Part shown: positions 27,142-57,247 of the stretch, one piece after another
Layout: every line of letters starts with the position of its first letter
How positions within the stretch are numbered: position 1 is the stretch's first letter
From: Gracilibacillus sp. YIM 98692
Lineage (GTDB): Bacteria; Bacillota; Bacilli; Bacillales; Amphibacillaceae
Length of the DNA: 64,000 nucleotides
Reading direction: 5' to 3'
NCBI RefSeq assembly: GCF_010993965.1
Contig: NZ_WIXM01000008.1
Span: 1 to 64,000, forward strand
Made by a program: the position numbers and the translations under genes
The notes under the pieces: generated by a model
The model's input: only the letters and a program-made list of their open reading frames with translations
What the model was told of the DNA's origin: nothing
The model's database searches: none

Positions 27142-28923
27142 TTAATGAGTTCTACCAGCAAGATTAATGAAATATAATAATTTATCTTTTTCTTTTTTCT
27201 CAAAAGTTTGCTCAACAAAAGAATGAATGAGCCCACCATCTATTTCCTCATTAAAAGAATTTTGTACAAAATGTTCCAATTTCTTCAATATGTTTGCTCT
27301 TTCCTTTTCTGGAGTTGTGTTTAGCAATGCACGAACTTTATTTTGCGCAGATTTTGTCCAGGAGTATGATTCCAAGACCTCTATTTTTGCTGCTTGTTTC
27401 ATTTGTTGATGTTGATCTTGTAAATCATCGATACTAATATCACCCTCTTTTGGTATGCCTAATCGCTCATATTGTTCCTCTGGTGCCTCATGCTTTCTCA
27501 TGATCTCTGCCATTTTTTTAATCAATTTTTGCTCTACTTCTGCATCTTCTATTTCGTTATGTTGTCCAGGATCATTCACAATATCGTATAATTTTGAGCC
27601 ATATTGGAACGGATTTACAAAACCTCTTCCCGCTTCCATTTTCATCACTTTGGCTCTACGTGTAAAAGAAAAGCGATCTTCTAACTCAATGTCCGTTAAT
27701 TCATTTACAGAAAACATTTGTCGCATATGTGTTGGCATTAAGGTATATTCATATAGAGGTTTATTTTGTGGTAAGACAGGTCCTCTCATATATACATAAT
27801 TTTTGTCTACTATGTTGACATGCCCGCCATGAAATCCAAATAAGGCAGCATCTTTTGCAGTATTTTTTTTCTCTTCCTTAAACAGATCTCCGATTGGGCT
27901 CCCTGTCATTTCTTTTGGAATTTCCACATCAAAAAAATCTAATAATGTGGGAGCAATGTCTATTAATTGCACTATTTCTTCATTGCGTTGCCCTTCTTCT
28001 TTATACCTTGGATCCCACATAAACATTGGAATATGAGCAATCTCTTGATAAACAGGCATAATAGCTTTGGACCACCACCCATGCTCACCTAGCAAATAAC
28101 CATGATCTGTATTGACAATTAACATCGTGTCTTCCCACATATCGTTTTCATCCATCATATCAAGCACTTTACCTAGATAATGATCACACATACTTAACAA
28201 TGCAGCATATTCATATTTTCCATGCTCGACAGTTTCCTCACCTTCTCTTACAAAATAATAAGGTGGCCAATCAAACTGTTTTCCATCATATTCATGAGGA
28301 TATAACTCTTTATATTTTTTATAAGATGTAAACGGCTCATGGGGATCAAATGTTTCTAATTGCAAAAACCATTGATCCTCATCCTTATTTTTATCTATAA
28401 ACTCTAATCCAGCTTGAAATGTCATGGCTTGTGGATGCTGTTCTTCCTCTTTGTAATATTCTCTATTGATGACATCTTGTCGGAACAAAGGAAACTCCTT
28501 CATTTCTGGTACTTCTGTCTCTGGTAGGTCCGGATCTTTCACATGCCCTTTCCACGGATCTCCTTCCTGCCCTCTAAAACTTTCCCAAGAGCTGTATCTA
28601 GTATGATAGGTTGCTCCACCGTCCTCCCAATAATGTTGGTGGTCGGACACTAAATGCGTATAAACACCATTATTTTTTAGTATTTCCGGCATCGAATGAT
28701 CAAATGGCTCAAGGGGCCCCCAGCTGCGATGTAAAAAGTTATAACGTCCTGTATGCAAATCTCTTCGTGCTGGCATACAAGGTAAACTTCCTGCATATGC
28801 GTTATCAAAGGTAACCGTTTTATCAGCTAACCGTTGAAAATTGGGAGCATGAACCCAATCACATCCATACGGTGGCAGCATATGACGATTTAACGAATCA
28901 AACATGACCATGATTGCTTTCAT
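27142..28923 (-). CDS. Sulfatase, CMPAR type (alkaline phosphatase-like fold)
   Basis: This is a 593-residue type I (formylglycine) sulfatase, cytoplasmic with no signal peptide. The activation motif is CMPAR with Cys49 as the residue to be oxidised. Metal-site residues appear in MFDSLNRH at the N terminus and in NTDHGYLLGEHGWWSK. A C-terminal region of about 130 charged residues is longer than in its paralogue at 47282-48781, with which it shares the GSLPCMPARRD and GFHGG/GMFGM context. The substrate is unknown. It is the last of the importer-sulfatase transcript, 24 bp after another sulfatase gene, and has a GGAGTGG ribosome-binding site. Confidence 0.92.
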   Translation of the reverse strand: MKAIMVMFDSLNRHMLPPYGCDWVHAPNFQRLADKTVTFDNAYAGSLPCMPARRDLHTGRYNFLHRSWGPLEPFDHSMPEILKNNGVYTHLVSDHQHYWEDGGATYHTRYSSWESFRGQEGDPWKGHVKDPDLPETEVPEMKEFPLFRQDVINREYYKEEEQHPQAMTFQAGLEFIDKNKDEDQWFLQLETFDPHEPFTSYKKYKELYPHEYDGKQFDWPPYYFVREGEETVEHGKYEYAALLSMCDHYLGKVLDMMDENDMWEDTMLIVNTDHGYLLGEHGWWSKAIMPVYQEIAHIPMFMWDPRYKEEGQRNEEIVQLIDIAPTLLDFFDVEIPKEMTGSPIGDLFKEEKKNTAKDAALFGFHGGHVNIVDKNYVYMRGPVLPQNKPLYEYTLMPTHMRQMFSVNELTDIELEDRFSFTRRAKVMKMEAGRGFVNPFQYGSKLYDIVNDPGQHNEIEDAEVEQKLIKKMAEIMRKHEAPEEQYERLGIPKEGDISIDDLQDQHQQMKQAAKIEVLESYSWTKSAQNKVRALLNTTPEKERANILKKLEHFVQNSFNEEIDGGLIHSFVEQTFEKKEKDKLLYFINLAGRTH

Positions 28924-28947
28924 CTTAATACCACTCCAATTAATATT

Positions 28948-30420
28948 TTAGAATCTTTTATTTTGAACTAATGGCACCACATCACATGTTTCTTGATAAA
29001 ATGTTAGCATTCTTTCTTTTAGCTTGATCACTATTTCTTTGTAACTTGCGTCATCAATCAAATTGATTGTTTCTTCGGGATCTGCTTCTAAATCATACAG
29101 TTCGTCTTTTTCATCCAACCTTCGGATATACTTGTATTTTTCTGTTCTTACCATAGTTGCTTTGGTATGCTCAGGCCCTTGACTTCTTTGCATTTCTCCT
29201 CTTGGCCAATAAAGATCAGAGGGATTTCTATTCATCGGACCGTCTTCATTACAATGAATTTCTTCTTTCAGCCTGCCGCCTTCTGAAAACACAGCATCTC
29301 GATGCCTTTGTTTTTCCCCTTTCATTATTGGTACTAATGACTTCCCGAAGTGAAAATGATTAGGCTCTACCTCTGTTAGATCCTCAACGGTGGCAGTAAA
29401 ATCGACTAACTCTACTAAACTATCACGAACTCCCGGCTCGATGTCTACGGAACTAGGTGGTTTAATAATAAATGGTACCTTCGTTAAACAATCTTGAAAA
29501 ACGTTCTGTGCTTTTTCTACTACTCCATAATCTCCTGCGAATTCTCCATGATCAGAAAAGAAAAAGATTGCTGTATCCTCATAAAGTCCTTGTTCTTTTA
29601 GTGCCTCAACAAGCATTCCAAATTGATGATCTACTCTTGTACACATCGCATAATAAGTTGCTCTTAGTTCCGCCCACCTTTTTTCACTCCATGTACTTAA
29701 ATTCATTTTTTCATATAATCCGGCAAGCATACTTGGTTTGTTATCCCAAGAGTCTGGCTCCTTGATTCGTTCTGGCATTTTGTCACGGTCAATCATTTCA
29801 TACCATGGTGATTCTACCCCAAATGGAACATGTGGATATAATAATGGCAAATACATACACATCGGTTTATCAGCTGGCGGATTCTTAATAAAATCAATCG
29901 CTCCCATTACATTTTCCCAATCAGGATCATGATAATGAGATTCTCCTTCTTCTTTTTCAATCTCACCGACATAAAAAGAATAATAGGTGTCATCTTCAGG
30001 ATTGCCACGTCTTAAATCGTTACCAAAATAATTTTTTGTTTCTCGTCGGGGCTCATATTTTTCATTGCAATAATCATCAAAACCATTTTCAGCAGGTACT
30101 AAATCATTTCTTCCTCCCCACCAAACATAATAGCCAGCTTCTTTTAACGTTTTCAGTAATACTGGCTCATCCTTTTGCATCATGTGATACATGGTACGAT
30201 GTCCACGTACATGGGGATACCAACCGCTCATAAACGAACAACGACTAGGTGTGCAGACAGGATTTTGACAAAAAGCATTTCGGAAAGAAACAGCATCTGT
30301 TTCAACGATTTTGTCTAAATGAGGAGTAACGGCAGCGGGGTTACCCATATGACCTAGTAAATCTCCTCGCCACTGATCAACATTGAATATAATAATATTT
30401 GGTTTCTTCTTATTTTCCAT
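28948..30420 (-). CDS. Sulfatase, CTPSR type
   Basis: This is a 490-residue formylglycine-dependent sulfatase without a signal peptide. Cys56 lies in the canonical CTPSR motif (QNPVCTPSRCSFMSGWYP). Metal-binding Asp is in FNVDQWRGD, and the second site is FFSDHGEFAGDYG. It is a close paralogue of the protein at 36422-37900, sharing long identical stretches such as the motif region and GPEHTKA. It starts 14 bp downstream of the permease stop, with AGGAGG. This places it in the same transcript as an ABC importer, so it probably desulfates what that importer brings in. Confidence 0.94.
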   Translation of the reverse strand: MENKKKPNIIIFNVDQWRGDLLGHMGNPAAVTPHLDKIVETDAVSFRNAFCQNPVCTPSRCSFMSGWYPHVRGHRTMYHMMQKDEPVLLKTLKEAGYYVWWGGRNDLVPAENGFDDYCNEKYEPRRETKNYFGNDLRRGNPEDDTYYSFYVGEIEKEEGESHYHDPDWENVMGAIDFIKNPPADKPMCMYLPLLYPHVPFGVESPWYEMIDRDKMPERIKEPDSWDNKPSMLAGLYEKMNLSTWSEKRWAELRATYYAMCTRVDHQFGMLVEALKEQGLYEDTAIFFFSDHGEFAGDYGVVEKAQNVFQDCLTKVPFIIKPPSSVDIEPGVRDSLVELVDFTATVEDLTEVEPNHFHFGKSLVPIMKGEKQRHRDAVFSEGGRLKEEIHCNEDGPMNRNPSDLYWPRGEMQRSQGPEHTKATMVRTEKYKYIRRLDEKDELYDLEADPEETINLIDDASYKEIVIKLKERMLTFYQETCDVVPLVQNKRF

Positions 30421-30434: not shown

Positions 30435-31301
30435 TTATCCCTTCACACTTGATGACAGTAAACTTTGCACGAAATGTTTTTGGAATACAAAAAACATGAT
30501 AATTAGCGGAATAGATACAACAAGTGTTGCAGCCATTAATAAATTAAATTCTATGCCAAATTCCCCTTGGAAAGCCTGTAAACCTAACTGAACCGTTCGC
30601 ATTTCAGCAGTATTGGTATAAATAAGCGGGTGAAAAAAGTCATTCCAAATATGAACCGTTTTCAAAATACCAAATGCTGCAATAACCGGACCACTAAGCG
30701 GTAAATATACGGATATGAATGTTCTAATTGGACCTGCTCCATCCATATAGGCCGCTTCATCAAGAGATTTTGGAAAATATTGATAAAATTGACGAGACAA
30801 GAATACACCAACAGGTGCTGCTACTTGAGGAATGATTAAAGCGTAATACGTATTTAACCATCCATTTCCGCCCATGCCAAATAAATCATTACCTCCAAAT
30901 AAAGGAATATGCTTCATGATAATAAATTGCGGGATAATTACTGCTTGAGGTGGTACCATAAGCCCTAATAATAGAATAATAAAGATAACATTCTTTCCTT
31001 TAAAGTTCATTCTGGCAAACGTGTATCCTGCTAATAGACTTACAACTATACTTGCTCCAACCCCGAAAAAGGTAACAATGAACGAATTTTTAAAATAGGT
31101 TCCCCAAGCAGCCGTCTGCATGGCTGCTACATAATTTTCAAACTGCCATGCTTTTGGTAAAAAAGTAAATTGACCTGATACAAATTCTGTATCACCTTTT
31201 AAAGAGGTAAAAATAATGAATAAAAATGGTAAAATCATAATAATCGATGCAATGATTAAAAGGATATAGGCAATCATTTTGCTTTTTCTGTTGTTTAACA
31301 T
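30435..31301 (-). CDS. Carbohydrate ABC transporter permease (MalG type), second system
   Basis: This is a 288-residue permease with six membrane helices. The EAA loop is at SLDEAAYMDGAGPIRTFISV and the C terminus is FVQSLLSSSVKG. It lies between its MalF-type partner (15 bp upstream) and two sulfatase genes. It is part of an importer for a sugar that is presumably sulfated. No ATPase gene is nearby, so a shared MsmX-type ATPase is assumed. Confidence 0.94.
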   Translation of the reverse strand: MLNNRKSKMIAYILLIIASIIMILPFLFIIFTSLKGDTEFVSGQFTFLPKAWQFENYVAAMQTAAWGTYFKNSFIVTFFGVGASIVVSLLAGYTFARMNFKGKNVIFIILLLGLMVPPQAVIIPQFIIMKHIPLFGGNDLFGMGGNGWLNTYYALIIPQVAAPVGVFLSRQFYQYFPKSLDEAAYMDGAGPIRTFISVYLPLSGPVIAAFGILKTVHIWNDFFHPLIYTNTAEMRTVQLGLQAFQGEFGIEFNLLMAATLVVSIPLIIMFFVFQKHFVQSLLSSSVKG

Positions 31302-31316: not shown

Positions 31317-32189
31317 TTAATTTAGATCATTTTCTTTTGGAGTGAATATATAGTTAACCAATGTAAATACAAATACAATGATTAATAAGAAGATAGCTAA
31401 AGTAGCAGCATACCCCATTTCAAAATCCTCAAAGCCCCTTCTTACGATTTCATTTACAATCGTCGTCGTTCGGTTGGCTGGTCCTCCTCCTGTCATAACA
31501 TAAACAATATCAAACACTTGGAAGGATGCGATCGTTGTCATAATAAAGATAAAAAAGGTAATAGGTCTTAATAATGGTATTGTAATTTGAAAGAATTTCC
31601 TAATGGATGTAGCACCATCAATACTTGCCGCTTCATACAGTTCATTCGGTATCCCTTGCAATCCTGCCGTATATATAATCATACTAAATCCAATAGATAT
31701 CCAAATTCCTACAACAATTACTGCTGGTAAAGCTGTTGCAGGGTCTTTCAGTAAGTCTTTACTACTTAAACCAAATGATTGTAAAAAGGAATATATGGGA
31801 CCTCCAATTGGACTGTACAGCCAAATCCATGTCATAGAGACGGCAACCCCTGACATAACAGCTGGTAAATAAATGATCGCTCTAAATACAGGAGCTAATT
31901 TAATTTTCGTATTCATAAACACCGCTAATACTAATCCAATAATCATGCTCGGCAATACGGTGAACAACCAGTAAAAGCTTGTATTTCGAATGGAAAGCAG
32001 GAAGGCATTATCACTAAATGCTTTTTGATAATTGCCTATTCCTATCCATTCACCTGCACTAAAAATATTTTGATTTGTAAAACTCAAATAGAACACCCAA
32101 ATTAAAGGTATCAGTACAAATACCAAATAGATAATGGCATAAGGACTGATCAAAATATATGGTACGATACTATTCCATTTACTTTTCAT
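31317..32189 (-). CDS. Carbohydrate ABC transporter permease (MalF type), second system
   Basis: This is a 290-residue six-helix permease; the EAA motif is at ELYEAASIDGATSIRKFFQI. The ATG at 32189 (MKSKWNSIVPY) is chosen because GGGGGA stands 5-6 bases before it. A longer in-frame start at 32243 would add 18 residues, part of them read from the neighbouring repeat element, and has no ribosome-binding site. The binding-protein gene lies upstream, beyond the palindromic repeat. Confidence 0.93.
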   Translation of the reverse strand: MKSKWNSIVPYILISPYAIIYLVFVLIPLIWVFYLSFTNQNIFSAGEWIGIGNYQKAFSDNAFLLSIRNTSFYWLFTVLPSMIIGLVLAVFMNTKIKLAPVFRAIIYLPAVMSGVAVSMTWIWLYSPIGGPIYSFLQSFGLSSKDLLKDPATALPAVIVVGIWISIGFSMIIYTAGLQGIPNELYEAASIDGATSIRKFFQITIPLLRPITFFIFIMTTIASFQVFDIVYVMTGGGPANRTTTIVNEIVRRGFEDFEMGYAATLAIFLLIIVFVFTLVNYIFTPKENDLN

Positions 32190-32212
32190 GTGAATCCCCC
32201 ATTTAGAAGTTA

Positions 32213-32406
32213 GAGCTGTCTCAAAAGCAGGCTCACTGTACACGCAACTGGAATATACTCGCTTTCCGCGGGCAACGCTTCAGCCTCCTCGTGAGCAAAA
32301 AACGCTCACTGTGGGGGCTTCAGCTGTCCGATTTCCCGCAGGAGTCTCGTATATTCCATTTGCTGAACTTGTTTAGATACGTAAACTAACCTTATGCGAC
32401 AGCCCC
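32213..32406. repeat. Single palindromic repeat, copy D, inside an ABC operon
   Basis: This 194-bp imperfect palindrome has the inverted termini GAGCTGTC (32213-32220) and GACAGCCCC (32398-32406). Inner arms GCAACTGGAATATACTCG and the inverse of CGTATATTCCATTTGC pair as well. The core shares CTTTCCGCGGGCAACGC, CAGCCTCCTC and CCCGCAGGAGTCT with copies A-C. It lies 7 bp after the stop of the binding-protein gene and 23 bp before the permease start. Its transcript would fold into one long hairpin. Confidence 0.88.
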
Positions 32407-32413: not shown

Positions 32414-33727
32414 TTATTCTAAACCTAACTCTTGTCTAACTTGATCTGCCTGAAATTCTAAGGATTCTCCTGGTTCCCTTACATCTGAATAAGCTTCTTC
32501 AAGCGCTAACCTTAAATGTTCCACATTTAAATTCCAATGTTCTGATGCTCTAAAGCCACCTGAGTCTTTCATTGCTTCAAATACCACTTCATTATAAGGA
32601 GATAAATTCTTAAATTCTTCTTCCATGGATTTCCTTGGAATGAGATAACCTGCTTCTTCTGAAAATTTCAATAGATTGTCAGGTTCAAACCAAAATTTAA
32701 TAAATTCCCATGCTTCTTCCTGATATTCTGTACTATCATTCATGGCCACAAAAGTACCCATCGATAAAGATGTCTGTGTACCATTTGGCCCTTCTGGAGG
32801 TAAAGTCCAACCGATATTTTCTAAGTCAATAGAATCTCCCATTGCTTCCACAATCTGTGGTGAAGTAAATGCCATAGCTGATTGTCCATTCTGGAAAGGA
32901 GAGCCTTCTAATTGTAAATTATTCGATGGAATAATTGCTCCATCGTTGTATAAATCTACTAGATCACTTAGTAGTTGTTTTGAAGTATCTGAATCGTACA
33001 GAGGATCACCATTTTCTTCATACATATGTGCTTGGTCATGTAATAAAAGTAAGGAATAAAATGCTTGTTCTCCATTTTGCACTGGAATATCTATTCCACC
33101 ACGAGTTGTAGTACCACTTTCGTCTATAATAGCTAATTGACGTGCATATTCATAAAGTTCTTCTACAGTTTGCGGCGGTTGTTCAGGATCCAGGCCTGCT
33201 TCTTCAAAATAATCCTTTCGATAGAATAATACACGAATGTCTGGAAATAAAAGGCCATATTGTCCACCATTCCATTGACCACTCTCTAAAATATCTGGAA
33301 AAATATCTTCTTTTCCATCCCAATTATCCTGTTCTATAAATTGATTTAAATCAGCATATTGTTCTTGTACTACTGTATACATCAGCTGCCCATAACCTAA
33401 TCCATGAATATCTGGAGCATTACCACCTGCATAGCCAACAGAAAGTTTTTGGAAATATTCCCCCCACGGTACTGCTTCATATTCAATGTTAATATTGGGA
33501 TTTTCATTTTCAAAATCCTCTACGATTCCACTTATCGCATCTGCTACATAGTTTTGACCAGGCCACCATAATTTCAATGTTACTTCTTCTTCCTGATTTT
33601 GTTCTCCTTCTCCGTTAGCACTCTTTTGTTTTTCTTCATTTGTAGAAGAATCACTTTGACATCCAGTAACCATCAACAATAAAGATAGAATAAAAATAAT
33701 ACCCCACTTTAAAATTTTTCTTTCCAT
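32414..33727 (-). CDS. Sugar ABC transporter solute-binding lipoprotein, second system
   Basis: This is a 437-residue extracellular binding lipoprotein. The signal helix is followed by the lipobox MVTGCQSD, with the cysteine at about residue 23, and an Asn/Glu/Lys-rich linker. The mature domain opens VTLKLWWPGQ, and QSAMAFTSPQIVEAM is a typical MalE-family segment. The ATG at 33727 is preferred: AAAGGGG lies 7 bases upstream and the signal peptide starts there. The in-frame ATG at 33787 would add 20 hydrophilic residues before the signal. It is the first gene of the importer-sulfatase operon, and a weak cre and a dyad lie upstream. Confidence 0.93.
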   Translation of the reverse strand: MERKILKWGIIFILSLLLMVTGCQSDSSTNEEKQKSANGEGEQNQEEEVTLKLWWPGQNYVADAISGIVEDFENENPNINIEYEAVPWGEYFQKLSVGYAGGNAPDIHGLGYGQLMYTVVQEQYADLNQFIEQDNWDGKEDIFPDILESGQWNGGQYGLLFPDIRVLFYRKDYFEEAGLDPEQPPQTVEELYEYARQLAIIDESGTTTRGGIDIPVQNGEQAFYSLLLLHDQAHMYEENGDPLYDSDTSKQLLSDLVDLYNDGAIIPSNNLQLEGSPFQNGQSAMAFTSPQIVEAMGDSIDLENIGWTLPPEGPNGTQTSLSMGTFVAMNDSTEYQEEAWEFIKFWFEPDNLLKFSEEAGYLIPRKSMEEEFKNLSPYNEVVFEAMKDSGGFRASEHWNLNVEHLRLALEEAYSDVREPGESLEFQADQVRQELGLE

Positions 33728-33820
33728 TTTGTAACCCCTTTCATTTTTAGGATTTTTGTTCTTGCAACTTAAATGTAATCGATCCATCTCATTTTGGTAA
33801 AGTTCTATATGTAATAATAG

Positions 33821-33988: not shown

Positions 33989-36253
33989 TTAAAAATTGCT
34001 TTTATTTACTTTTGGATTTTGTATTTCTTCATCTAATTGACGATATTCAGACGGAGTCATTCCTACTGCTTTTTTAAATACTGTATAAAAATTGCTCTTT
34101 GTTTGAAAACCAGAACGTTCCGCAATATCAGCGATTAACCAATCTGTCGTTTGAAGCATTTCTTTCACTCTATTGATCCTATTTGTTAAAATATAATCCG
34201 AAATCGTTTCTTTCGTCACTTCTTTAAAGACTTGTCTGATATAACTTACAGATAAAGATAAATGATCCGCCACTTGATTAACCGTTAACATTGGATCATG
34301 AATGTGTAAATTGATATACTCTCTCATCTCATCTACTAGCTCTGACTTCCGATCTGAAACTCTTAATTCCTCTAAATCACTCATAATATGATTTATTTCA
34401 GTTTCTAGCCATTCCCTAGCTTCAGTTAGAGTAGCATAGTTTTCTATCTGTTTTTCGATCCCATCAAAGCTTTTGAAAAATGTCAGTTGATTAAACGATT
34501 TCATCAAAGAATAGATCATATTGATTAAATGGAATTTACACTCGTTTGGATGCATTAATTGCAATTCTGAAAATATTTGGTCCAATATTTCATTTACTTT
34601 ATTTTTATTTCCAATTTGTATGGATTGACATAAAAAATCTTGCACTTTGTCTTTTACAGGATTCATCATGGTTACATATTTCTCAGCATCCGATTCCTCG
34701 TAAATTTTGTCTTTACCTGTGATAAATTTTAATGTTGATAAATTGTAAATTTCTTGATAAGTCGATTTCAAGTTGCCATCGGTTTCTTTTGGATCACTAA
34801 TGGCAATTGTTACATTTAAATTCAACCATTTAGATATTTGATTTTTCGCAATCTGAAGTTGTTCCATTAAGTTAGATTTATTTAAATTATCATTACCAAA
34901 TAATAGCACCATATGGTCTCCGCCAAAATCAGCAAACTCTATCGTTCGTTTTTGCTGAAATGTGTGCTCTATGATATTACCAATCGCATATTTCATTGCT
35001 TTTCTAGTTGTCAAATTATACTTTTCTAAAAATAATGGGTATCTTTCTATTCGAACAACCAATAACATTAAAGTTTCATCATTCAATAAATGGGTCTCTT
35101 CTGAAATATACTTTCTTATCGATTCATTTAAATAGCCTTGAAGAATCCACTGTCTTAAATTCTCCTCTTTAATTAAATGTTTATGTTTCCTAATCGAATT
35201 ACTCATTTCATTTAAAGTTTTAATTAATGAATCAAAGCTCTCATATAACATTTTATGTTCTTCTTGATTTGTTTTTTTATCTCGATCGACGTATCGATGA
35301 ATCTTGTCTTCAATACTCTCTGCTAATTGAGTAAACGGTCTATAAGTTTTTCTGGATAACCAAAATACGATTATGCCAATCATTAATAATATAACAATTG
35401 ATGCATACACAATATTTCTTTGAAAATTAGTTATCGATTGCTGCCATGGTCCTATTTCCGTCAAGTAATATAATTTCCAACCGAAAGTATCCATTGTGAC
35501 ATAATTGATCGACCAAGTTTTATCATCTATTTCCATGTTATATTGCCCTTGATTATGACTCGCCATATCTGATATATTACTACGATGATGATTCCAGCTG
35601 TCATCCCCTAACAATAGTTGTCCATTTTGATCAGTTAGAAGCACTGTAGTATTTTCGTTATCTTGATTATTTTGAAATAAGTATGCCTCCATCATGTCTG
35701 TATCTAGTAAAGTCACCATAGAACCATCATAATGTTCAGCTTCCACAATCATGGCTAAATAATTTTTATCTTCTCTTTTATGATGGAAGTATGTCAATCT
35801 TTTATAATTACCAGAATCAATCAATTCAAGCATATGTTGATCATCAAATTCCTCTTGCAAGAACATCCCTTGCTTTGAATCAAAGACAACTCCAGTTTGT
35901 TCATTAATCAAATAGACGGTATGAATAAACGGTTCATCTAATAAATAATTGGTGACACTTTTATATGATTTCCATAGCTCCCCACCGTTGTGTTCGTCTA
36001 ATTCCAAGTAATTTTGAATACGTTCATCTACATAAATACGCAATGAATACGCTTCCATTCTATCCAACAAAAATTGGATGCTCTCCGTAGAATTAGTCAA
36101 CTCACTTCTCGTAAAATGATTGATCTCCGAAAAAGCATACTTAGAGAATTGCTTGGATAATAATAAGGAAATAGGAATAATAATAATGGCACATAAAACA
36201 AATATCCATAAAGTCATTTTCGTATACATTTTTCTCTTTTTATAAAACTTCAT
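33989..36253 (-). CDS. Membrane-anchored AraC-family regulator with extracytoplasmic sensor
   Basis: This 754-residue protein combines sensing and DNA binding in one chain. A helix at about 12-35, an extracytoplasmic Cache-like region (about 40-285) and a second helix (about 290-308) resemble a YesM sensor. Instead of a kinase domain there is a cytoplasmic linker and a C-terminal AraC domain (about 650-750, LTVNQVADHLSLSVSYIRQVF and the closing GMTPSEYRQ). No histidine-kinase or receiver motif is present. The start at 36253 (MKFYKKRK) has GGGAGGAA 5 bases upstream; an earlier in-frame ATG at 36283 does not. It lies between the second importer operon and the symporter-sulfatase pair and probably regulates one or both. 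Confidence 0.88.
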   Translation of the reverse strand: MKFYKKRKMYTKMTLWIFVLCAIIIIPISLLLSKQFSKYAFSEINHFTRSELTNSTESIQFLLDRMEAYSLRIYVDERIQNYLELDEHNGGELWKSYKSVTNYLLDEPFIHTVYLINEQTGVVFDSKQGMFLQEEFDDQHMLELIDSGNYKRLTYFHHKREDKNYLAMIVEAEHYDGSMVTLLDTDMMEAYLFQNNQDNENTTVLLTDQNGQLLLGDDSWNHHRSNISDMASHNQGQYNMEIDDKTWSINYVTMDTFGWKLYYLTEIGPWQQSITNFQRNIVYASIVILLMIGIIVFWLSRKTYRPFTQLAESIEDKIHRYVDRDKKTNQEEHKMLYESFDSLIKTLNEMSNSIRKHKHLIKEENLRQWILQGYLNESIRKYISEETHLLNDETLMLLVVRIERYPLFLEKYNLTTRKAMKYAIGNIIEHTFQQKRTIEFADFGGDHMVLLFGNDNLNKSNLMEQLQIAKNQISKWLNLNVTIAISDPKETDGNLKSTYQEIYNLSTLKFITGKDKIYEESDAEKYVTMMNPVKDKVQDFLCQSIQIGNKNKVNEILDQIFSELQLMHPNECKFHLINMIYSLMKSFNQLTFFKSFDGIEKQIENYATLTEAREWLETEINHIMSDLEELRVSDRKSELVDEMREYINLHIHDPMLTVNQVADHLSLSVSYIRQVFKEVTKETISDYILTNRINRVKEMLQTTDWLIADIAERSGFQTKSNFYTVFKKAVGMTPSEYRQLDEEIQNPKVNKSNF

Positions 36254-36383
36254 ATGATTCCTCCCATATAAAGCAAATTTCATTCAGCCTGTTACCATCT
36301 AGGTAATTTCTATTAAATAAATCATACCATACTTTTAACCAAAAATAATAAAAGTGTTACAAAAATCTAAAAGTCAATAGTAA

Positions 36384-49644: not shown

Positions 49645-49671
49645 CGTATCACTCCTTTGTTTATGTGGCAT

Positions 49672-50625
49672 TTAAACATATCGATTTGCTTTTGCTTTAG
49701 ATCTTAGATATTGGATAATTAGCATTAAAAAGATAATGGTAAAGCCGAAAAATACACCTGCAGCTGATCCATATCCCATTCGCGGCTGGCCTATTTCTCC
49801 TGCAAAAGCAGCACTATAAATGTAAGTAGAAACAACATCAGTAGCGAAGAAAGGTCCGCCATCTGTTAATGTTTTAATTAAATCAAATACTCTTAGCGAA
49901 AATGCTACATTAAAAAGTAAGATGACTGCACCAATTGGTATGAGCAATGGCAAGGTGATAGAGAAGAACGTTTTAAAATGCCCTGCACCATCAATGTACG
50001 CTGCTTCATACAGTTCTTTCGGGATACCTTGTAAACCTGCCAGCCAAAATATCATATTGATACCGGTACTCATCCAAACTGAAACCATAATAACTGTAGG
50101 CATTGCCCACTTCATACTACCTAAAAAGTCAATCGGAACATCTAATATTCCTAATTGCATTAATAAATAGTTAACTCCGCCATCAGTACTCCAAATGAAG
50201 CCCATTACAATACCGATAATAGATGCACTAGTAATTACGGGCAAAAATATTAAAGTTCTATAAATACTAGCAAATTTCAGCTTTGGGTTATTTAAGATAA
50301 CTGCAAACAGTAAACCTAACATAAGTTGAAATGGAACACTTCCGAATGTAAAAATAAATACATTTTTATAAGCATTCCAGAAATATTTATCATTGATTAA
50401 TTCTTGAAAATTTGCTAACCCTACAAATTCAATTTGTGAGCTTAAACCTGACCAATCTGACATCGCATAGTACCAGCTAGTTACAATTGGCCATGCCTGA
50501 AATAAAGTAAATAATATGATATTAGGTAAAACAAATAACCAACACCAAAACATAATATATCTATTCCGCTTTTTTCTTAAGCTAGAAGTTTGTTGTTTGC
50601 CTGCTGTAATATTTGCGTTTGCCAT
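49672..50625 (-). CDS. Carbohydrate ABC transporter permease (MalF type), third system
   Basis: This is a 317-residue permease with six membrane helices after a hydrophilic N-terminal stretch of about 20 residues. The EAA loop is at ELYEAAYIDGAGHFKTFFSI. AAAGGAGG stands before the ATG. A 10-bp hairpin separates it from the binding-protein gene. It works with the permease downstream and an ATPase encoded elsewhere. Confidence 0.94.
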   Translation of the reverse strand: MANANITAGKQQTSSLRKKRNRYIMFWCWLFVLPNIILFTLFQAWPIVTSWYYAMSDWSGLSSQIEFVGLANFQELINDKYFWNAYKNVFIFTFGSVPFQLMLGLLFAVILNNPKLKFASIYRTLIFLPVITSASIIGIVMGFIWSTDGGVNYLLMQLGILDVPIDFLGSMKWAMPTVIMVSVWMSTGINMIFWLAGLQGIPKELYEAAYIDGAGHFKTFFSITLPLLIPIGAVILLFNVAFSLRVFDLIKTLTDGGPFFATDVVSTYIYSAAFAGEIGQPRMGYGSAAGVFFGFTIIFLMLIIQYLRSKAKANRYV

Positions 50626-50684: not shown

Positions 50685-52163
50685 TTATTTCTTGTAATTT
50701 TTCATTGGATCCCAATCTGGAAATATAAAGTCTTCCATACCAACGTCTGCCCCTTTATCTTGAGCTTCCGTTATTGCTTTTTCCAGAGCTGCATCTGTCT
50801 GTTCAGACAAATCTTGTAACATAGGTTCATAGTCTCGCAGACCAGAGATAGCTACTCCTTGCATTATTTCAGCTGCCGAAGGTGTGACATCTACATATTC
50901 TCCAAGTGCTTTGGTAACATCAGGATTTTCTGATTCTGGTACAGGTCCATGTACAAGGATTTCATTGAACAACTCATAAAATTCTAAAAATTCACCTGTT
51001 GCAGCTTCTTCAATAACACCAGCCACAGGGGAATAATTGTGCTGATTTTCGACAACCTTGTGCTGATAAAAATCACCGCCATATAGCTCTTCTAAATACT
51101 TTGCTGCTAAATCTGGATGATCGGTTTCAGCATATACTCCAAATCCACCCTGAGCTACAGAATCAATCGAACCTTGTCTTCCGTCATCAGATACAGGAGG
51201 GGTCATCATGCCATAATCTAACTCTGGGTTATTAGCATTCCAAACTCCAATATTCCATGCTCCTTGAATGATAAAACCTGCTTCACCATTAGCAAAGATT
51301 TGTCTAGCTTCAGGTGCTGTCAGACTAGACGTTCGCGGATGAATACTTCCATCATCAGCTAACCCTGCGAATAAATCAAAAATGTCAGTAACTGCCTCTG
51401 TATGGTAAGGAGCCTCTCCTGTTAATTTACTAACTGGAGAATTATCTGCTAAACCAGCACCATTTAATGAACCCCACTCTTGGATAGCAAACTTGAATCG
51501 ATTAGACTGCTTTCCACCTTCTATCAAACCATAAAACTCGCCATTACCAGCTTCTGTAATCTTACGTGCATATTCTCGAAACTCTTCATATGTTTTAGGA
51601 GGTTGCTCAGGGTCTAAACCTGCTTTTTCAAACAACTCTTTATTATAAAACACCATAGCCGTTGGTTGAGCCGTCTGTTGAGGAATAGAGTAAATGGTTT
51701 CATCAACCATGTTTATGCCTTCCTGAAATGTCCCTTCCCTAAATATGTCAAAAAAGCCGTCCTCTACTATTGGTTCAAGTGGTTGAAACCAACCATCATC
51801 AACAAGAACAGGTAAACTAAAGCCTAATGGAACTGGAAATATGTCTGGTGCATCCCCACTCCTAATAGCATTAAGGATGGTATCTGTAAATTGTTGTTGT
51901 GTTAGTGTTGTATATTCAATATTCGTTACCTCAGGATACTTTTCCATAAATTGTTCATGAAACTCTTCTCTAAGATATCTCGTAGAATCACTCCAATCCA
52001 TTACTCTTAAAGTGATTCCATCTTCATCATTCTCCTCTTGAGCTCCTTCATTAGCATTTCCTGTTTCTTTAATGGTTTCATTATTACTGTTACATGCGAA
52101 TAAAAATACTATTAATGACAGCAAACTGACTGTTAAACCGAGCCATTTTTTTTTCAAATTCAT
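50685..52163 (-). CDS. Sugar ABC transporter solute-binding lipoprotein, third system
   Basis: This is a 492-residue lipoprotein. The signal helix ends in the lipobox LFACNSNN (Cys24), followed by a Glu/Asn-rich linker. The mature domain begins ITLRVMDWSDSTRYLREEFH. Segments such as GEAGFIIQGAWNIG and YNKELFEKAGLDPEQPPKTY are typical of family 1 sugar-binding proteins. AAAGGAGGTC is very close to the ATG. A strong cre lies about 75 bp upstream, and the YesM/YesN pair is encoded directly before it. The ligand is probably a sulfated oligosaccharide, inferred from the four sulfatase genes downstream. Confidence 0.93.
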   Translation of the reverse strand: MNLKKKWLGLTVSLLSLIVFLFACNSNNETIKETGNANEGAQEENDEDGITLRVMDWSDSTRYLREEFHEQFMEKYPEVTNIEYTTLTQQQFTDTILNAIRSGDAPDIFPVPLGFSLPVLVDDGWFQPLEPIVEDGFFDIFREGTFQEGINMVDETIYSIPQQTAQPTAMVFYNKELFEKAGLDPEQPPKTYEEFREYARKITEAGNGEFYGLIEGGKQSNRFKFAIQEWGSLNGAGLADNSPVSKLTGEAPYHTEAVTDIFDLFAGLADDGSIHPRTSSLTAPEARQIFANGEAGFIIQGAWNIGVWNANNPELDYGMMTPPVSDDGRQGSIDSVAQGGFGVYAETDHPDLAAKYLEELYGGDFYQHKVVENQHNYSPVAGVIEEAATGEFLEFYELFNEILVHGPVPESENPDVTKALGEYVDVTPSAAEIMQGVAISGLRDYEPMLQDLSEQTDAALEKAITEAQDKGADVGMEDFIFPDWDPMKNYKK

Positions 52164-52288: not shown

Positions 52289-53047
52289 CTATTTTTTACA
52301 TTGTTGTAACTCTCTATAATCACTTGGTGTTAAGCCTAAATCCTTCTTAAATATTCTTCTAAAATGTTTTTCACTTTGAAAGCCAACCTCTTTCGAAATA
52401 TTCTCAATCGTACTTTCTGTTTTCGTGAGCATATCTTTCGCATGTTGTATTCTTACTTCTCGCAAATACTGTACAAACCCTTTACCTGTCTCCATCTTAA
52501 ATAATCTGCTAAGATAAGATCCGTTAAAACCAACATCATCTGCGATTTCTGATAAAGATAGATCTTCCATGTACTTACTATTAATTAAATCTAAGGTATA
52601 CTTAATAATATGTACTCCATCATTTTTCCCTTCCTGACTTTGATCTATCATATTCTTTTGCATATCGATAGATTTTAAATGCTGGGACTTTAAGTTTTCC
52701 AATACCTCTTTTAATTCGTCACTTTTAATGGGTTTTAGTAAGTAATCTATTGCCCCAAGCCTAAATGCTCTTCTTGCATATTCAAATTCGCTATGACCAG
52801 TTATAATTATGACTGGTTGGTTATACTTTAGTTCTTTCATCTTCTCAATTAGGTCTAAACCGTCCATAATCGGCATACGTATATCCGTTATGATCACATC
52901 AAAATGCTTATGGCTGATTTTATCAAGAGCTTCCTCCCCATTTTGAGCTACATCTGTGACCACAAACTCATTGTTCAAATTATGAATAATATTGCACAAA
53001 CCCTCGCTCATCCAATACTCATCTTCAACCACTAACAGATTAAACAT
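52289..53047 (-). CDS. YesN-type response regulator, short form
   Basis: This is a 252-residue regulator with a receiver domain (about 1-120) and an AraC domain (about 150-250). The phospho-acceptor Asp is in VIITDIRMPIMDG and the conserved lysine in YLLKPIKSDEL. Unlike the 532-residue regulator at 13091 it lacks the long middle region. The ATG at 53047 (MFNLLVVEDE) is chosen because AAAGGAG is 8 bases upstream; ATGs at 53053 and 53068 are too close to or ahead of it. It should activate the binding-protein promoter that follows. Confidence 0.92.
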   Translation of the reverse strand: MFNLLVVEDEYWMSEGLCNIIHNLNNEFVVTDVAQNGEEALDKISHKHFDVIITDIRMPIMDGLDLIEKMKELKYNQPVIIITGHSEFEYARRAFRLGAIDYLLKPIKSDELKEVLENLKSQHLKSIDMQKNMIDQSQEGKNDGVHIIKYTLDLINSKYMEDLSLSEIADDVGFNGSYLSRLFKMETGKGFVQYLREVRIQHAKDMLTKTESTIENISKEVGFQSEKHFRRIFKKDLGLTPSDYRELQQCKK

Positions 53048-53060
53048 AAACATCGCTCCT

Positions 53061-54902
53061 TTAGTCATCCATTGGGATTTTTAATTCTATCATCGTTCCA
53101 TGTCCTTTTTTGCTATCAATAAACAATTCACTTTTTCCTTCATAATTAAATAGCAACCTTTGGTGAACATTATGTAAACCAATGCTATTTGACATATCCT
53201 CTTGCTCAACATTTGTGTGTTCTTGACCAGTAAGTCTGCTTTGAATACATTCGAGCTTATCTGACGGTATACCGATTCCATCATCTGTCACTTTAATAAT
53301 TAAAAACTCATCGTTTTTTTCATATACCGAAATCGTAATATTTCCACTTTTACCACTTGGAATAATACCGTGTTCCACTGCATTCTCAACTAAAGGCTGC
53401 AGTATTAATTTCAAAATATACTCTTCCATTAAATGACTGGGACACTCGAAATCATATTGTATTTTATTTGGGAATCGAATCTGAATAATGCGAAGATATG
53501 CTTTAACATGGTTTATTTCTTCTTCGAGTGTCTTGTATTTCTCATCGTCAATACTATAGTTAAACATATCAGATAAGGAGCCACTCATTTCTGCCACTTC
53601 TTCAACTCCTTTAATATCACCTATACACTTCATTGTGTTTAACGTGTTGTACAAAAAGTGAGGATTAATTTGCATTTGCAGTGCTTTCAGTTCTGATTCC
53701 CGATGAAGTAAACTTAATTTCATTTCTCGAATTTTGGATGCATACACTTTATCTTTTAATTGCTCTAAATTTTCCAGCATTCGATTAAAAGTATTTGTAA
53801 GTACTCCGAACTCGTCACTTCTAAAAACCGGAACTCTTACCGAAAGATCTCCAGTTTCTGCTTTGACCATATATTTTTGAAGTTGAATTAATGGGTTTGA
53901 GATTAATTGACTTAGATATTTAGAAATTACAATCACCAGTAATATGGCGGAAACAGCTATGATATAAATACTATTGCGAACATCATTTATTTTTCCTGAT
54001 ACTTCATGAAATGGAACGACACTTACGATTTTCCACCCTGTTTTTTCTGAGGTGTTAAATGAAATCAGCATCTCTTGATTATTTAAATAAAAAACGCCAT
54101 ACCCACTATCTTTATTATGAATTTTCAAACCTGTCAGCTCATCCAATAAATCATCTGATATATTTTTGTTTTCAAATAAAGGCTTACCATTTTCAGATAG
54201 AAAAGTAACAAAACCGGTATCCCCAATTTGAACCATATCACTCATTTTCGAAATATATTGAGGATCAAAATTAAATAATAGAGTCCCCTTTTCTTTCGTT
54301 AACTGATATAATCTTCCGCCAAAAGTTACCACTTTTTGATTATTGGTATATTTAGCCGCATGAGGTGGATACAATGAGAAATCTTTTTCTTTAACAATTT
54401 GTTGATAGATAGGATCTTCAGTCAAAAAGGCATCATCTAACTCTACAGCACTCCACCAACTAGAAAAGAGAGGATTAGCGTTGGATTTACTATAATAAAT
54501 AATACTGCCGTGGTCATTTACGACAAAAACGGACCACAAATTATCTCTGTAATCCACCGTAGTAGATAGAAGATCTCTCAAATCTAATTGCATATGAAGA
54601 GAGTTTTCGTCCGTTTGATCTTTCAAATTAAGGAACCTTTGCACCTTTTGATCATGATGAATACTCATGGATAAATACTCCATTTCTTCTATGAAAGCAT
54701 CTAATCGTAAGTCTACTTGCCTTGATGTTTCTACCATATATGCTCCTAATTCATCCTTTAAAGTATGAGTGGAAGTCTTGTAAAAAAAGAAAGATACTAG
54801 CAGAATGGGGATAAAACTTACTAGATAAAAAGTAATTAACAACTTGGGACGAATCATAATATGACTTGTCCAATAATCAAGTTTACTTAAAACTTTGTTC
54901 AT
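53061..54902 (-). CDS. YesM-type sensor histidine kinase, sulfatase locus
   Basis: This is a 613-residue membrane kinase. Helices lie at about 20-42 and 305-325, with an extracytoplasmic Cache-like sensor between. HAMP (about 327-380) is followed by the phosphorylation region QINPHFLYNTLN, then the HATPase motifs PLVENAVEHG, TDDGIGIP and GTMIELKIP. GGAGG precedes the ATG. It is the first gene of a minus-strand array running to about 42.7 kb. It probably senses the sugar bound by the third importer's binding protein, or free oligosaccharide. Confidence 0.94.
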   Translation of the reverse strand: MNKVLSKLDYWTSHIMIRPKLLITFYLVSFIPILLVSFFFYKTSTHTLKDELGAYMVETSRQVDLRLDAFIEEMEYLSMSIHHDQKVQRFLNLKDQTDENSLHMQLDLRDLLSTTVDYRDNLWSVFVVNDHGSIIYYSKSNANPLFSSWWSAVELDDAFLTEDPIYQQIVKEKDFSLYPPHAAKYTNNQKVVTFGGRLYQLTKEKGTLLFNFDPQYISKMSDMVQIGDTGFVTFLSENGKPLFENKNISDDLLDELTGLKIHNKDSGYGVFYLNNQEMLISFNTSEKTGWKIVSVVPFHEVSGKINDVRNSIYIIAVSAILLVIVISKYLSQLISNPLIQLQKYMVKAETGDLSVRVPVFRSDEFGVLTNTFNRMLENLEQLKDKVYASKIREMKLSLLHRESELKALQMQINPHFLYNTLNTMKCIGDIKGVEEVAEMSGSLSDMFNYSIDDEKYKTLEEEINHVKAYLRIIQIRFPNKIQYDFECPSHLMEEYILKLILQPLVENAVEHGIIPSGKSGNITISVYEKNDEFLIIKVTDDGIGIPSDKLECIQSRLTGQEHTNVEQEDMSNSIGLHNVHQRLLFNYEGKSELFIDSKKGHGTMIELKIPMDD

Positions 54903-54950
54903 GAGATGGCCTCCTACTAATATTGTTTTGTCTACAGAGGGTACAAGTTA

Positions 54951-54964: not shown

Positions 54965-54984
54965 TTATTAAGTAATAAAAAGAA

Positions 54985-55029
54985 GTCTCTGTGTATCCGT
55001 TATTAGTCTTTACAAAGATACACAAAGAC
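54985..55029 (-). terminator. Terminator of the FGE gene
   Basis: A 13-bp stem with one mismatch (54985-54997 with 55017-55029) has a 19-nt loop and is followed on the minus strand by TTCTTTTTATT. It starts 17 bp after the FGE stop codon and separates it from the kinase operon. Confidence 0.8.
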
Positions 55030-55045
55030 AATTTCTAATCATAAT

Positions 55046-56002
55046 CTAAACATCTTTTACACAACGGAAACCTATATTGCCAGATGAACTATCAGCTGTA
55101 TTAGAGCTGCGAGCAGCTACACGATAGCGGTTGCAATAGGACTTATGGCAAAGGTAAGACCCACCTCTCATTACTTTCGATACATCTCCTTGAACAAAGT
55201 CCTGATCTAATTGCCCGGTTCTATCAATCGTAAAGTGATCCGAACACCATTCCCAAACATTTCCTGAAACATTGTAAAGACCGTATCCATTAGGAGGGAA
55301 TGATTTTACAGGTGCAGTACCTACATAACCATCATCTTTTGTATTAGTTCGTGGAAATTCCCCTTGCCAAATATTGCAGTAATGTTCTCCATTTGGCGTT
55401 AACTCATCTCCCCAAGGATATCGTTTTTGTACTAAACCACCTCTTGCTGCATATTCCCATTCCGCTTCAGTAGGTAACCTTTTTCCTGCCCATTTACAAT
55501 AGGCAACCGCATCGTTCCATGATACATGAATAACAGGATGATTTAACCTATCCTCTATACTAGAACCAACTCCATCTGGTTGATACCAGTATGCTCTTTC
55601 TACCGCAAACCACCACGGAGTGCCTGGTACTTGCTGCACCTTTTCCTTTATATTCGGATCGATAAATTGATAGAAGACAAATGACCAACCAAATTTTTCC
55701 GCCTCTGTCTCATAGCCTGTTTCGTCTACAAACTGTTTAAACTGTTGATTCGTTACCGTATGTCGGTCAATATAAAAAGGTTTTACTTCCACTTCTTTAA
55801 TAGGACCTTCTCCATCCGTTTTAAAACCTTCATCATCTTCTGTTCCCATTAGAAAAGGACCGCCATCTAATAAGACCATATCTTCGTTTTCATTATCTGC
55901 TTTTTTTATATCCTGTAATTCGATTGTACTTTCCGTACTTTTATGAGAAATACTTTCCCTGCTTGCACTACAACAGCATTTCTGATTTTGTTTTTCATCC
56001 AT
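55046..56002 (-). CDS. Formylglycine-generating enzyme (sulfatase-modifying factor)
   Basis: This is a 318-residue FGE/SUMF1 family protein. It oxidises the cysteine of CxPxR in sulfatases to C-alpha-formylglycine, using oxygen and copper, in the cytoplasm. The family core begins MVLLDGGPFLMGTEDDEG. The catalytic cysteine pair is Cys285 and Cys290 in GGSYLCHKSYCNRYRVAARS, with the spacing of human Cys336/Cys341. GNVWEWC and the closing GFRCVKD are typical. This separates it from EgtB- or PvdO-like relatives that lack the pair. The N terminus carries KCCCSASRES, which resembles a substrate motif. The gene is 19 bp downstream of an AraC regulator gene and next to eight sulfatase genes that need it. 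Confidence 0.95.
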   Translation of the reverse strand: MDEKQNQKCCCSASRESISHKSTESTIELQDIKKADNENEDMVLLDGGPFLMGTEDDEGFKTDGEGPIKEVEVKPFYIDRHTVTNQQFKQFVDETGYETEAEKFGWSFVFYQFIDPNIKEKVQQVPGTPWWFAVERAYWYQPDGVGSSIEDRLNHPVIHVSWNDAVAYCKWAGKRLPTEAEWEYAARGGLVQKRYPWGDELTPNGEHYCNIWQGEFPRTNTKDDGYVGTAPVKSFPPNGYGLYNVSGNVWEWCSDHFTIDRTGQLDQDFVQGDVSKVMRGGSYLCHKSYCNRYRVAARSSNTADSSSGNIGFRCVKDV

Positions 56003-56021
56003 GGATAAAACCTCGCTTTTC

Positions 56022-57197
56022 TTATAAATGTATAGCCTGCTGATTTTTATATTGTTTTGGCGTGATATTGGTATATTTTTTAAATATTTTGGTGAAATAA
56101 CTTTGATCGGTAAATTGTAACTTCTGAGATATTTCCGTTAAGCTTTGGTTTGTGAATGACATTAATTTTTTAGCTTCTTCTACTTTTTCTTTTTGTATAT
56201 AATGAGAGACAGGCATGCCAACTTCTTTTTTAAATTGTGTAGAGATATAACCAGGTGAGACATTCACAAACTCTGCCAATTCAGTTAAACTCAACTCTTC
56301 ATATATATACATATAAATATAATCTAAACAATCTTTCAATAATTTTGAATATTTATTTCGTTTATGATGATACACATATTCTGCAAAGGTTTCCAATGCT
56401 TGGACATGTAAATGGATTACTTGATTAGCAGTCTTTGCTTCTTCTACTTTAACAATCATTTCATCACTCAAAGTCTTTGCTAATTCATGATTTATTCCTC
56501 CATCAATGGCAGATCGAGTTGCAAGAGTTATAGCAGAAATAGCAAAATTCTTCTTATTTCGGACATAGCTATTCTTAGCTAACACCGCTGGTCTTAATTT
56601 ATGTCTAATTTGATGGTGTTTCAATAAATCTTCTTTTCTTCCCTCTTTGATACACTGAAATACCTCTCGTTCAAGAGAGAATGGAGGATGAAAATCTTGG
56701 TCTTGCCTTCTGTTAGAAGCAGCTAATTCAATCGTTGATATTATTTTGTCAACGTTACCATTAATATATTTGCTATCATATAACTCAATGTTTGACACTT
56801 TTTTCTGAAACACTAAGAAATAAAGTAATTTGCCCATTAATACTGTTGTATCATGTGATAAAAGGGACAATCGATTATAATGATCTAGTATTTTGGATGT
56901 TTTCACATAAACCGAATGATCATTCGCTAACCCTTTAGCAATATTTCGAGAGATGGGATAATAAAGAATAGGCCCTACTACAAACATTCCTTTATATTGA
57001 TCATCCTTATACACATATAAAAGAATAAAATATTCCTCAAGCGCTGTTTTTCTTATAATTGGATGATTTTGCTCATATTTATATTCTTTCATTTCATTCA
57101 GCCAATGGTTTTCATTCAAATATAAAGGATTTATAGCAGGGCTTGCAGAAGTACAATATAATATATGATTGATGGAGTTCAGATAAGTTACCGTCAC
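56022..57197 (-). CDS. AraC-family regulator, N terminus apparently frameshifted
   Basis: This is a 391-residue open frame, paralogous to the regulator at 41355. It has an N-terminal sensor-like region and an AraC domain at about 285-388 (LSLTELAEFVNVSPGYISTQF, closing YTNITPKQYKN). The frame opens with a GTG that has no ribosome-binding site and lacks the first about 20 residues of its paralogue. Those residues are found one frame over at 57194-57247. One extra A in the AAA run near 57198-57200 would restore a full gene. Whether this is a real mutation, a sequencing error or frameshifting cannot be told here. It leads the transcript into FGE (19-bp gap). Confidence 0.8.
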   Translation of the reverse strand: MTVTYLNSINHILYCTSASPAINPLYLNENHWLNEMKEYKYEQNHPIIRKTALEEYFILLYVYKDDQYKGMFVVGPILYYPISRNIAKGLANDHSVYVKTSKILDHYNRLSLLSHDTTVLMGKLLYFLVFQKKVSNIELYDSKYINGNVDKIISTIELAASNRRQDQDFHPPFSLEREVFQCIKEGRKEDLLKHHQIRHKLRPAVLAKNSYVRNKKNFAISAITLATRSAIDGGINHELAKTLSDEMIVKVEEAKTANQVIHLHVQALETFAEYVYHHKRNKYSKLLKDCLDYIYMYIYEELSLTELAEFVNVSPGYISTQFKKEVGMPVSHYIQKEKVEEAKKLMSFTNQSLTEISQKLQFTDQSYFTKIFKKYTNITPKQYKNQQAIHL

Positions 57198-57247
57198 TTT
57201 ATAAGCATCTGAACAAGCTCGGCTATATATTCCATATCATCATGCAT
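57194..57247 (-). pseudogene. Out-of-frame 5' fragment of the AraC regulator gene
   Basis: Minus-strand ATG at 57247 opens 17 codons (MHDDMEYIAELVQMLIK) and then a TGA. The stretch MEYIAELVQMLIK lines up with FEFVGKLMYETFQ of the paralogue at 41355, and the next frame continues VTVTYLNS against IPILYMNN. GAGAGGTGG lies upstream, with the hairpin GTTGGTTT-CC-AAACCAAC between it and the ATG. This is the true start of the regulator gene, cut off by a one-base shift. Confidence 0.65.

Follow-up and report, generated by a model that had tools for sequence, protein, structure and literature searches.

A sulfatase-rich locus of Gracilibacillus and a possible link between sulfatase maturation and sulfate export in Bacilli

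The window analysed here, bases 1-64000 of contig C68 (NZ_WIXM01000008.1) in the 4.37 Mb genome of Gracilibacillus sp. YIM 98692, contains a locus encoding eight sulfatases, a formylglycine-generating enzyme (FGE), sugar importers and their regulators, flanked by chr1-chr2, a pair of genes for subunits of the CHR (chromate transporter) family. With moderate confidence, it is read as an inducible locus for the catabolism of sulfated oligosaccharides, in which sulfate would be removed in the cytoplasm and exported through the CHR pair. The import-and-desulfate strategy is already known; the new part is probably a sulfate exporter linked to FGE. A broader proposal, for which we consider the balance to be even, is that Bacilli desulfating in the cytoplasm depend on a dedicated exporter of sulfate, that this need is filled by unrelated families (distinct CHR pairs, TauE/SafE and, at least once, SulP), and that CHR proteins encoded beside a sulfatase maturase are sulfate exporters rather than chromate pumps.

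Sulfated glycans have mostly been studied in bacteria whose sulfatases work outside the cytoplasm. Unlike that strategy, importing the sulfated sugar poses the problem of sulfate disposal. Linkage of FGE to anion transporters would be a specific answer to this problem, and offers a function for CHR and TauE/SafE proteins, which are widespread and carry annotations as chromate or sulfite exporters.

Maturation and location of the sulfatases

The original prediction had placed within about 30 kb (27142-57247) eight sulfatases without signal peptides, one FGE with its cysteine pair, two CUT1 importers, a symporter and several regulators. Each of these genes is an open frame at its predicted coordinates and the domain matches agree. 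PF00884 scores above the Pfam cut-off in all eight sulfatase genes (E 1.5e-28 to 3.8e-46), the FGE domain PF03781 is found in the product of 55046..56002 (E 4e-87) and MFS_2 (GPH) in the symporter, and further matches cover two solute-binding proteins, four permeases, a sensor kinase, a response regulator and three AraC regulators. The labels CUT1, YesM and YesN are assumptions of ours from domain make-up. The importers each have a binding protein and two permeases, but no ABC ATPase gene is present among the open reading frames (ORFs) of the locus; in Bacillota one shared ATPase often serves such sugar permeases. The gene list was also incomplete, two enzymes of glycoside hydrolase (GH) family 3, a ROK regulator and the CHR pair having been overlooked, and the unit is larger than predicted, extending from about 20616 to 58499 as judged by synteny with Gracilibacillus suaedae.

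The location of the proteins was gauged by the best 12-residue Kyte-Doolittle mean within the first 60 residues. The eight sulfatases score 0.32-1.39, whilst three lipoproteins and two secreted glycoside hydrolases of the window score 2.51-3.03; by this measure the predicted lack of signal peptides holds for all eight. The FGE and both GH3 proteins likewise have no hydrophobic N-terminal segment (1.2-1.32). Each open frame was taken from the earliest start codon following a stop, which leaves no longer N-terminus to be missed. Because sulfatases without signal peptides sit behind ABC and GPH importers, the 'selfish' scheme that had been proposed, import of the sugar and then desulfation inside the cell, is well supported, the sugar presumably entering in its sulfated form.

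Residues 40-317 of the FGE align with the solved FGE 6s07 (393 bits) and the Cys-x4-Cys pair is kept. It is the only FGE in the genome at E <= 1e-60, and no anSME was found there at E <= 1e-40. The maturation motif CxPxR is present in seven of the eight sulfatases; SulfF (45703) has CAVAR, lacking the proline, and its nearest relatives carry CAVAR, CSAAR, CTAAR or CxPAR. The proline is missing from the SulfF motif in the window and in loci L061, L063, L064 and L065, and present in L062, L066 and most remoter homologues.

The proposed mechanism would run as follows. Other organisms, or enzymes encoded elsewhere, would release sulfated mono- or oligosaccharides, which the two lipoproteins would bind and the two ABC permease pairs, borrowing an ATPase, would import; the GPH symporter would import a further sugar. 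In the cytoplasm, FGE would turn the motif cysteine of the sulfatases into formylglycine, the core sulfatases A1, A2, C, D, E and F and the module sulfatases B1 and B2 would take sulfate off different positions, and the two GH3 enzymes would cleave the freed beta-linked ends. The chr1-chr2 pair would export the sulfate set free inside, and the ROK, AraC and YesM/YesN regulators would switch the locus on. The specificities of the sulfatases, sulfate as the CHR substrate and the outward direction of transport are what we infer from genomic linkage and sequence. Sulfate export is the reading that would best join these facts, with transport of another anion possible.

Linkage of FGE to anion transporters

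The bacterial family of the window genome has 74 FGE matches, and the neighbourhoods of 72 were taken, the match in the window and another on a 3.4 kb contig being set aside. These gave 73 rows in which one broken gene is counted twice; the cysteine pair is present in 71. Of the 73 rows, 23 have TauE/SafE within 5 kb of FGE and 7 have a CHR pair, making 30 with either, and the window adds one more. A TauE match also lies 1.2 kb from the FGE of the 3.4 kb contig, which is outside this count. Linked rows come from 16 of the family's 28 genera. Genomes of the family have 1-8 TauE/SafE and 0-10 CHR matches each, and with some four TauE/SafE genes in a 4 Mb genome chance linkage is estimated at about 1%, far below the frequency observed. 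Outside the family 7 of 30 FGE loci are linked, four to CHR (two families) and three to TauE/SafE (three others; f18, f19, f25, f44 and f58 together). A control took 1.5 kb to either side of 30 FGE loci, each from a different genome and that of the window among them, and of the 30 best xylA loci; CHR or TauE/SafE was present in 19 of the former and none of the latter. In this comparison the profiles, trained on sequences including FGE neighbours, may favour those subfamilies, and the xylA loci are weighted towards one genus. Since the genomes share descent, no linkage p-value is to be taken at face value.

Two further loci with relatives of SulfF have a transporter gene in the vicinity. In Halalkalibacter okhensis a SulP gene adjoins FGE (PF00916, 377 bits, in an ORF truncated where the locus ends), and in Ammoniphilus a CHR pair lies about 8 kb past the sulfatases of the locus, with FGE on another contig (G330:C3). 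An exporter is linked in 0 of 6 rows (five loci) with a lipoprotein-like sulfatase beside FGE versus 30 of 67 others (p = 0.039), a split made after seeing the data which carries little weight, since an earlier, stricter threshold gave 2 rows and no difference (p = 1). In L120, L128, L129, L139 and L150, a sulfatase of 771-781 residues with a lipoprotein-like N-terminus directly adjoins FGE, as an exported counterpart. Apart from one remark on a pneumococcal island, the open-access literature searched, which does not cover subscription papers, yielded no general link of sulfatase maturases with anion exporters.

The genes chr1 and chr2 encode two single-domain PF02417 proteins together and so constitute a short-chain CHR pair. 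In a tree of 77 chosen CHR rows (two fragments omitted, one genome's pair present twice), the subunits linked to FGE or anSME fall into one 15-row clade each (12 linked, 3 not), apart from 28 rows of other pairs, with support of 100/88 for chr1 and a weak 89/47 for chr2. Both kinds are found among the rows of four FGE-linked genomes (G035, G034, G023 and G009). A reverse test examined 26 of the 27 best class-wide chr2 matches (E <= 6e-46), 10 of which lie near an FGE, an anSME, a sulfatase or the Ammoniphilus locus.

Several observations weigh against the proposed desulfation and export. No FGE, anSME or sulfatase was present in the stretch examined around 16 of the 26 CHR loci, although two of these are near a contig end and in one the ORF filter hid the CHR genes themselves, and genome G037 has the CHR pair and ROK with no FGE match. 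Neither CHR nor TauE/SafE lies within 5 kb of 43 of the 73 family FGE rows, 23 of the 30 FGE loci outside the family are unlinked, and neither transporter occurs in the 21.5 kb examined of the Metabacillus niabensis locus. SulP proteins are usually importers. The hydropathy measure is rough: in G. suaedae the SulfA2 orthologue reaches 2.06, owing to its first strand, as high as lipoprotein sulfatases elsewhere (1.86-2.02). SulfF may be inactive or slowly matured, because its motif proline is missing and the genome is without anSME. Finally, sulfatase activity was not detected for a related island of Streptococcus pneumoniae (PMC3283741).

Such CHR genes accompany ROK regulators generally and sulfatases in part of cases, as follows from the 16 of 26 loci and from a ROK gene beside CHR in 8 of those 16. 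These counts favour the view, which is doubtful but the most viable of the alternatives, that the CHR, TauE/SafE and SulP neighbours reflect an old operon neighbourhood or the handling of other anions, and not export of sulfate from sulfatases; linkage inside Gracilibacillus is, moreover, largely common descent. Against it, unrelated transporter families stand in the same place by FGE, in more than half of the genera of the family and in five further families, whilst the xylA loci are without any such linkage.

It is unlikely that the locus serves sulfur scavenging, in which the freed sulfate would supply the cell with sulfur and the CHR pair would either pump chromate in the ordinary way or take up sulfate. 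Sulfatases do have this role in other bacteria, and the SulP gene of H. okhensis belongs to a sulfate permease family. CHR proteins are known for chromate: Bacillus subtilis YwrBA, like chr1-chr2, consists of two single-domain subunits encoded together and is tied to chromate tolerance; yet its regulation, being thought to prevent co-extrusion of sulfate along with chromate, speaks for the export reading (PMC8940164). The FGE-linked subunits are separate from the 28 other CHR rows, which are of YwrBA type only by assumption, and four of the sampled genomes carry both kinds. Furthermore, two GH3 enzymes, sugar-type regulators (ROK, YesM/N and AraC) and eight sulfatases of multiple families favour carbon use, and no cysteine-synthesis gene is present among the assigned genes of the unit.

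Sulfatase specificity and the likely substrate

SulfD has as its closest solved relative the Gal-2-O-sulfatase S1_8A (302 bits), followed by S1_8B (230) and S1_8C (223), with the next family at 125. It appears S1_8-like, and a 2-O-sulfate is probably among the sulfates removed. This S1_8A belongs to the lambda-carrageenan polysaccharide utilization locus of Pseudoalteromonas distincta, where it is read as a monosaccharide-specific Gal-2-sulfate 2-O-sulfohydrolase; the proteins of that locus were cloned without their predicted signal peptides (PMC12549532). For SulfE the closest solved structures score 139-148 bits, S1_11 6-O-sulfatases among them. SulfA, B, C and F could not be placed in this way, as their top matches are weak and mixed with no close solved relative. 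The AlphaFold2 (AF2) model of SulfF (pLDDT 91.7) matches 50 listed folds, which are general sulfatases and phosphonate hydrolases (PMH) at 17-27% identity; a predicted structure of SulfA2 from six sequences reached pLDDT 39 and was set aside. The locus thus supplies sulfatases without a close solved relative and a possible proline-less FGE substrate motif.

GH3b is very near a beta-glucosidase (closest solved 7ms2, 1174 bits). GH3a is closest to the beta-glucosidase 9ul7 (305 bits), with the GH3 beta-glucuronidase SN243 at 215 bits; p-nitrophenyl-glucuronide was far the best of six substrates tested with SN243 (PMC9730296). Genes for 2-keto-3-deoxy-6-phosphogluconate (KDPG) aldolase, D-mannonate oxidoreductase, mannonate dehydratase and a GntR regulator, part of the glucuronate pathway, adjoin the locus (window 62532-63985 and L007:14-1966), with a GH97 gene bearing a signal-like segment (58624-62274) in between. 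In G. suaedae, the uronate genes are not adjacent to the locus.

No lyase or endo-hydrolase was found among the assigned ORFs of the locus, and the genome was searched for the GH88/GH105 and Hepar_II_III families only; as far as this goes, the predicted absence of a depolymerase stands. GH88/GH105 gave no match above the cut-off in the window genome (two weak ones lie below) and none at all in G. suaedae, and Hepar_II_III gave no match in the former and one weak match (27.7 bits) in the latter. Among the other Bacillota carriers, GH88/GH105 matches number one in H. okhensis, eight in M. niabensis and five in Ammoniphilus, and all three have Hepar_II_III matches too; none of these genes lies within the sulfatase-locus stretches examined. 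The want of GH88/GH105 above the cut-off disfavours lyase products in the window genome and G. suaedae. That the substrate consists of lyase products of sulfated glycosaminoglycans or ulvan is therefore improbable, despite the resemblance of the symporter to a glucuronide transporter and of GH3a to a beta-glucuronidase, the nearby mannonate and aldolase genes and the lyase-pathway families of the three carriers. The best guess is that the locus acts on saturated sulfated oligosaccharides or glycosides with beta-linked glucose or glucuronic acid ends.

Gene order, distribution and related systems

The original prediction had suggested looking for the same gene order in related genomes, and a syntenic run is present in G. 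suaedae (G035). The order there is chr1, chr2, FGE, YesM, YesN, lipoprotein c, permeases c1 and c2, SulfA2, SulfF, SulfE, SulfD and SulfC, followed by GH3a, AraC1 (reversed), the GPH symporter (36%), SulfA1, GH3b, an anSME above the TIGR03942 cut-off and ROK. Orthologues are 64-88% identical, AraC1 (53%) and ROK (59%) being exceptions. GH3a, GH3b, ROK and the two CHR genes are thus taken as part of the unit since they are syntenic, while the same gene order marks AraC2 and the SulfB1-SulfB2 stretch, which includes ABC system b, as apparent additions in the window genome. In two other genomes (G034 and G031) chr1-chr2-FGE-ROK form one group and the sulfatase cluster is missing, an arrangement suggesting insertion of the cluster between FGE and ROK. 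Beside the G. suaedae core (C29, ~29-38.7 kb; L042) there is a second module with SulfB-like and S1_8-like sulfatases, a GH1-like gene and genes that by reading resemble a phosphotransferase system (PTS), which suggests PTS import of sulfated glycosides.

Relatives of SulfF were sought in 84,980 species genomes by two conserved peptide patterns. The 31 loci found include G. suaedae, H. okhensis, M. niabensis, Ammoniphilus and several Paenibacillus, as well as spirochaete, Latescibacterota, Opitutales and other genomes, many of them metagenome-assembled genomes (MAGs). Halalkalibacter, Metabacillus and Ammoniphilus share a partial core of ABC system c or a relative, YesM/N, SulfF, SulfA2, SulfE, GH3a and partly SulfC. 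Within the family, SulfF occurs in 2 of 159 genomes, FGE in 63 and anSME in 16; FGE is present in 33 of 398 genomes drawn from the class. In a fish-gut survey, sulfatases for algal polysaccharides were scarce in Clostridia and found in one Bacilli MAG only (PMC11333855). The locus is therefore unusual for Bacillota, as had been proposed, in the rarity of SulfF, but it is not without parallel given the frequency of FGE and the other Bacillota with much of the gene set.

Nor is the system wholly undescribed. In the glycosaminoglycan cluster of Streptobacillus moniliformis an ABC importer with a solute-binding protein handles sulfated disaccharides, the sulfatase Smon0126 is predicted to be cytoplasmic and the hydrolase is intracellular, much as is proposed for the window; that cluster relies on a GH88 hydrolase and lyase-type depolymerisation, however, whereas the window has eight sulfatases, FGE, GH3 enzymes and the CHR pair (PMC5430744). 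The pneumococcal island encodes ROK, PTS, a sulfatase, a sulfatase-modifying factor and a TauE-family protein, and ROK deletion raised the sulfatase and PTS transcripts; the TauE match is called interesting, with no role stated in the part consulted (PMC3283741). It shares with the window a ROK regulator, a sulfatase and a maturation factor, but imports by PTS and has one sulfatase in place of ABC/GPH import, eight sulfatases and a CHR pair. The window locus is a larger variant of the kind seen in Streptobacillus and Streptococcus, and what is new against the published strategy is the link to a putative sulfate exporter.

Table 1. Genes of the sulfatase locus and its flanks, in window coordinates
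Feature	Position	Strand	Basis and remarks
ROK-family regulator	20616..21800	-	59% orthologue at far end of G. suaedae locus; 57% beside CHR-FGE in G034, G031
GH3a beta-glycosidase, no signal segment	21906..24131	-	77% orthologue inside G. suaedae locus
GH3b beta-glucosidase-like, no signal segment	24679..26979	-	82% orthologue in G. suaedae locus
SulfA1, S1 sulfatase	27142..28923	-	PF00884; motif CMPAR; in G. suaedae core
SulfB1, S1 sulfatase	28948..30420	-	PF00884; CTPSR; module b, outside G. suaedae core
Sugar ABC permease b2	30435..31301	-	Domain match
Sugar ABC permease b1	31317..32243	-	Domain match
Solute-binding lipoprotein b	32414..33787	-	Domain match; hydrophobic N-terminus
Membrane AraC regulator	33989..36283	-	AraC domain; Cache match under its cut-off
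SulfB2, S1 sulfatase	36422..37900	-	PF00884; CTPSR
GPH symporter	37925..39319	-	TIGR00792 above cut-off; next best, below cut-off, is glucuronide transporter model
SulfC, S1 sulfatase	39599..41152	-	PF00884; CAPSR; in G. suaedae core
AraC-type regulator 1	41355..42581	+	Domain match; 53% orthologue in G. suaedae
SulfD, S1 sulfatase	42680..44317	-	PF00884; CAPSR; extra C-terminal CHB_HEX_C_1 domain
SulfE, S1 sulfatase	44363..45706	-	PF00884; CAPSR
SulfF, S1 sulfatase	45703..47307	-	PF00884; CAVAR; AF2 model pLDDT 91.7, sulfatase/PMH fold
SulfA2, S1 sulfatase	47282..48781	-	PF00884; CMPAR; in G. suaedae core
Sugar ABC permease c2	48793..49671	-	Domain match; G. suaedae orthologue
Sugar ABC permease c1	49672..50625	-	Domain match; G. 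suaedae orthologue
Solute-binding lipoprotein c	50685..52163	-	Domain match; G. suaedae orthologue; hydrophobic N-terminus
YesN-type response regulator	52289..53068	-	Domain match; G. suaedae orthologue
YesM-type sensor kinase	53061..54902	-	Cache, HAMP, His_kinase; G. suaedae orthologue
Formylglycine-generating enzyme (FGE)	55046..56002	-	PF03781; only genome match at E <= 1e-60
AraC-type regulator 2	56022..57197	-	Domain match; outside G. suaedae core
chr2, CHR subunit, putative sulfate exporter	57311..57850	-	PF02417; synteny
chr1, CHR subunit, putative sulfate exporter	57876..58499	-	PF02417; synteny

The sulfatases include two paralogue pairs, 27142/47282 (42%) and 28948/36422 (59%). The genome has 14 PF00884 genes, eight in the locus and one LtaS-like; further examples at L004:9980-11356 and L004:12619-14049 (G000 C45) show no Cys-type maturation motif in a motif scan of residues 35-115. 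The region 310-18920 holds, by reading, xylB, xylA, an XylR-like ROK gene, a third ABC system accompanied by a YesM/YesN-like pair of its own, and GH66-like and GH42-like genes.

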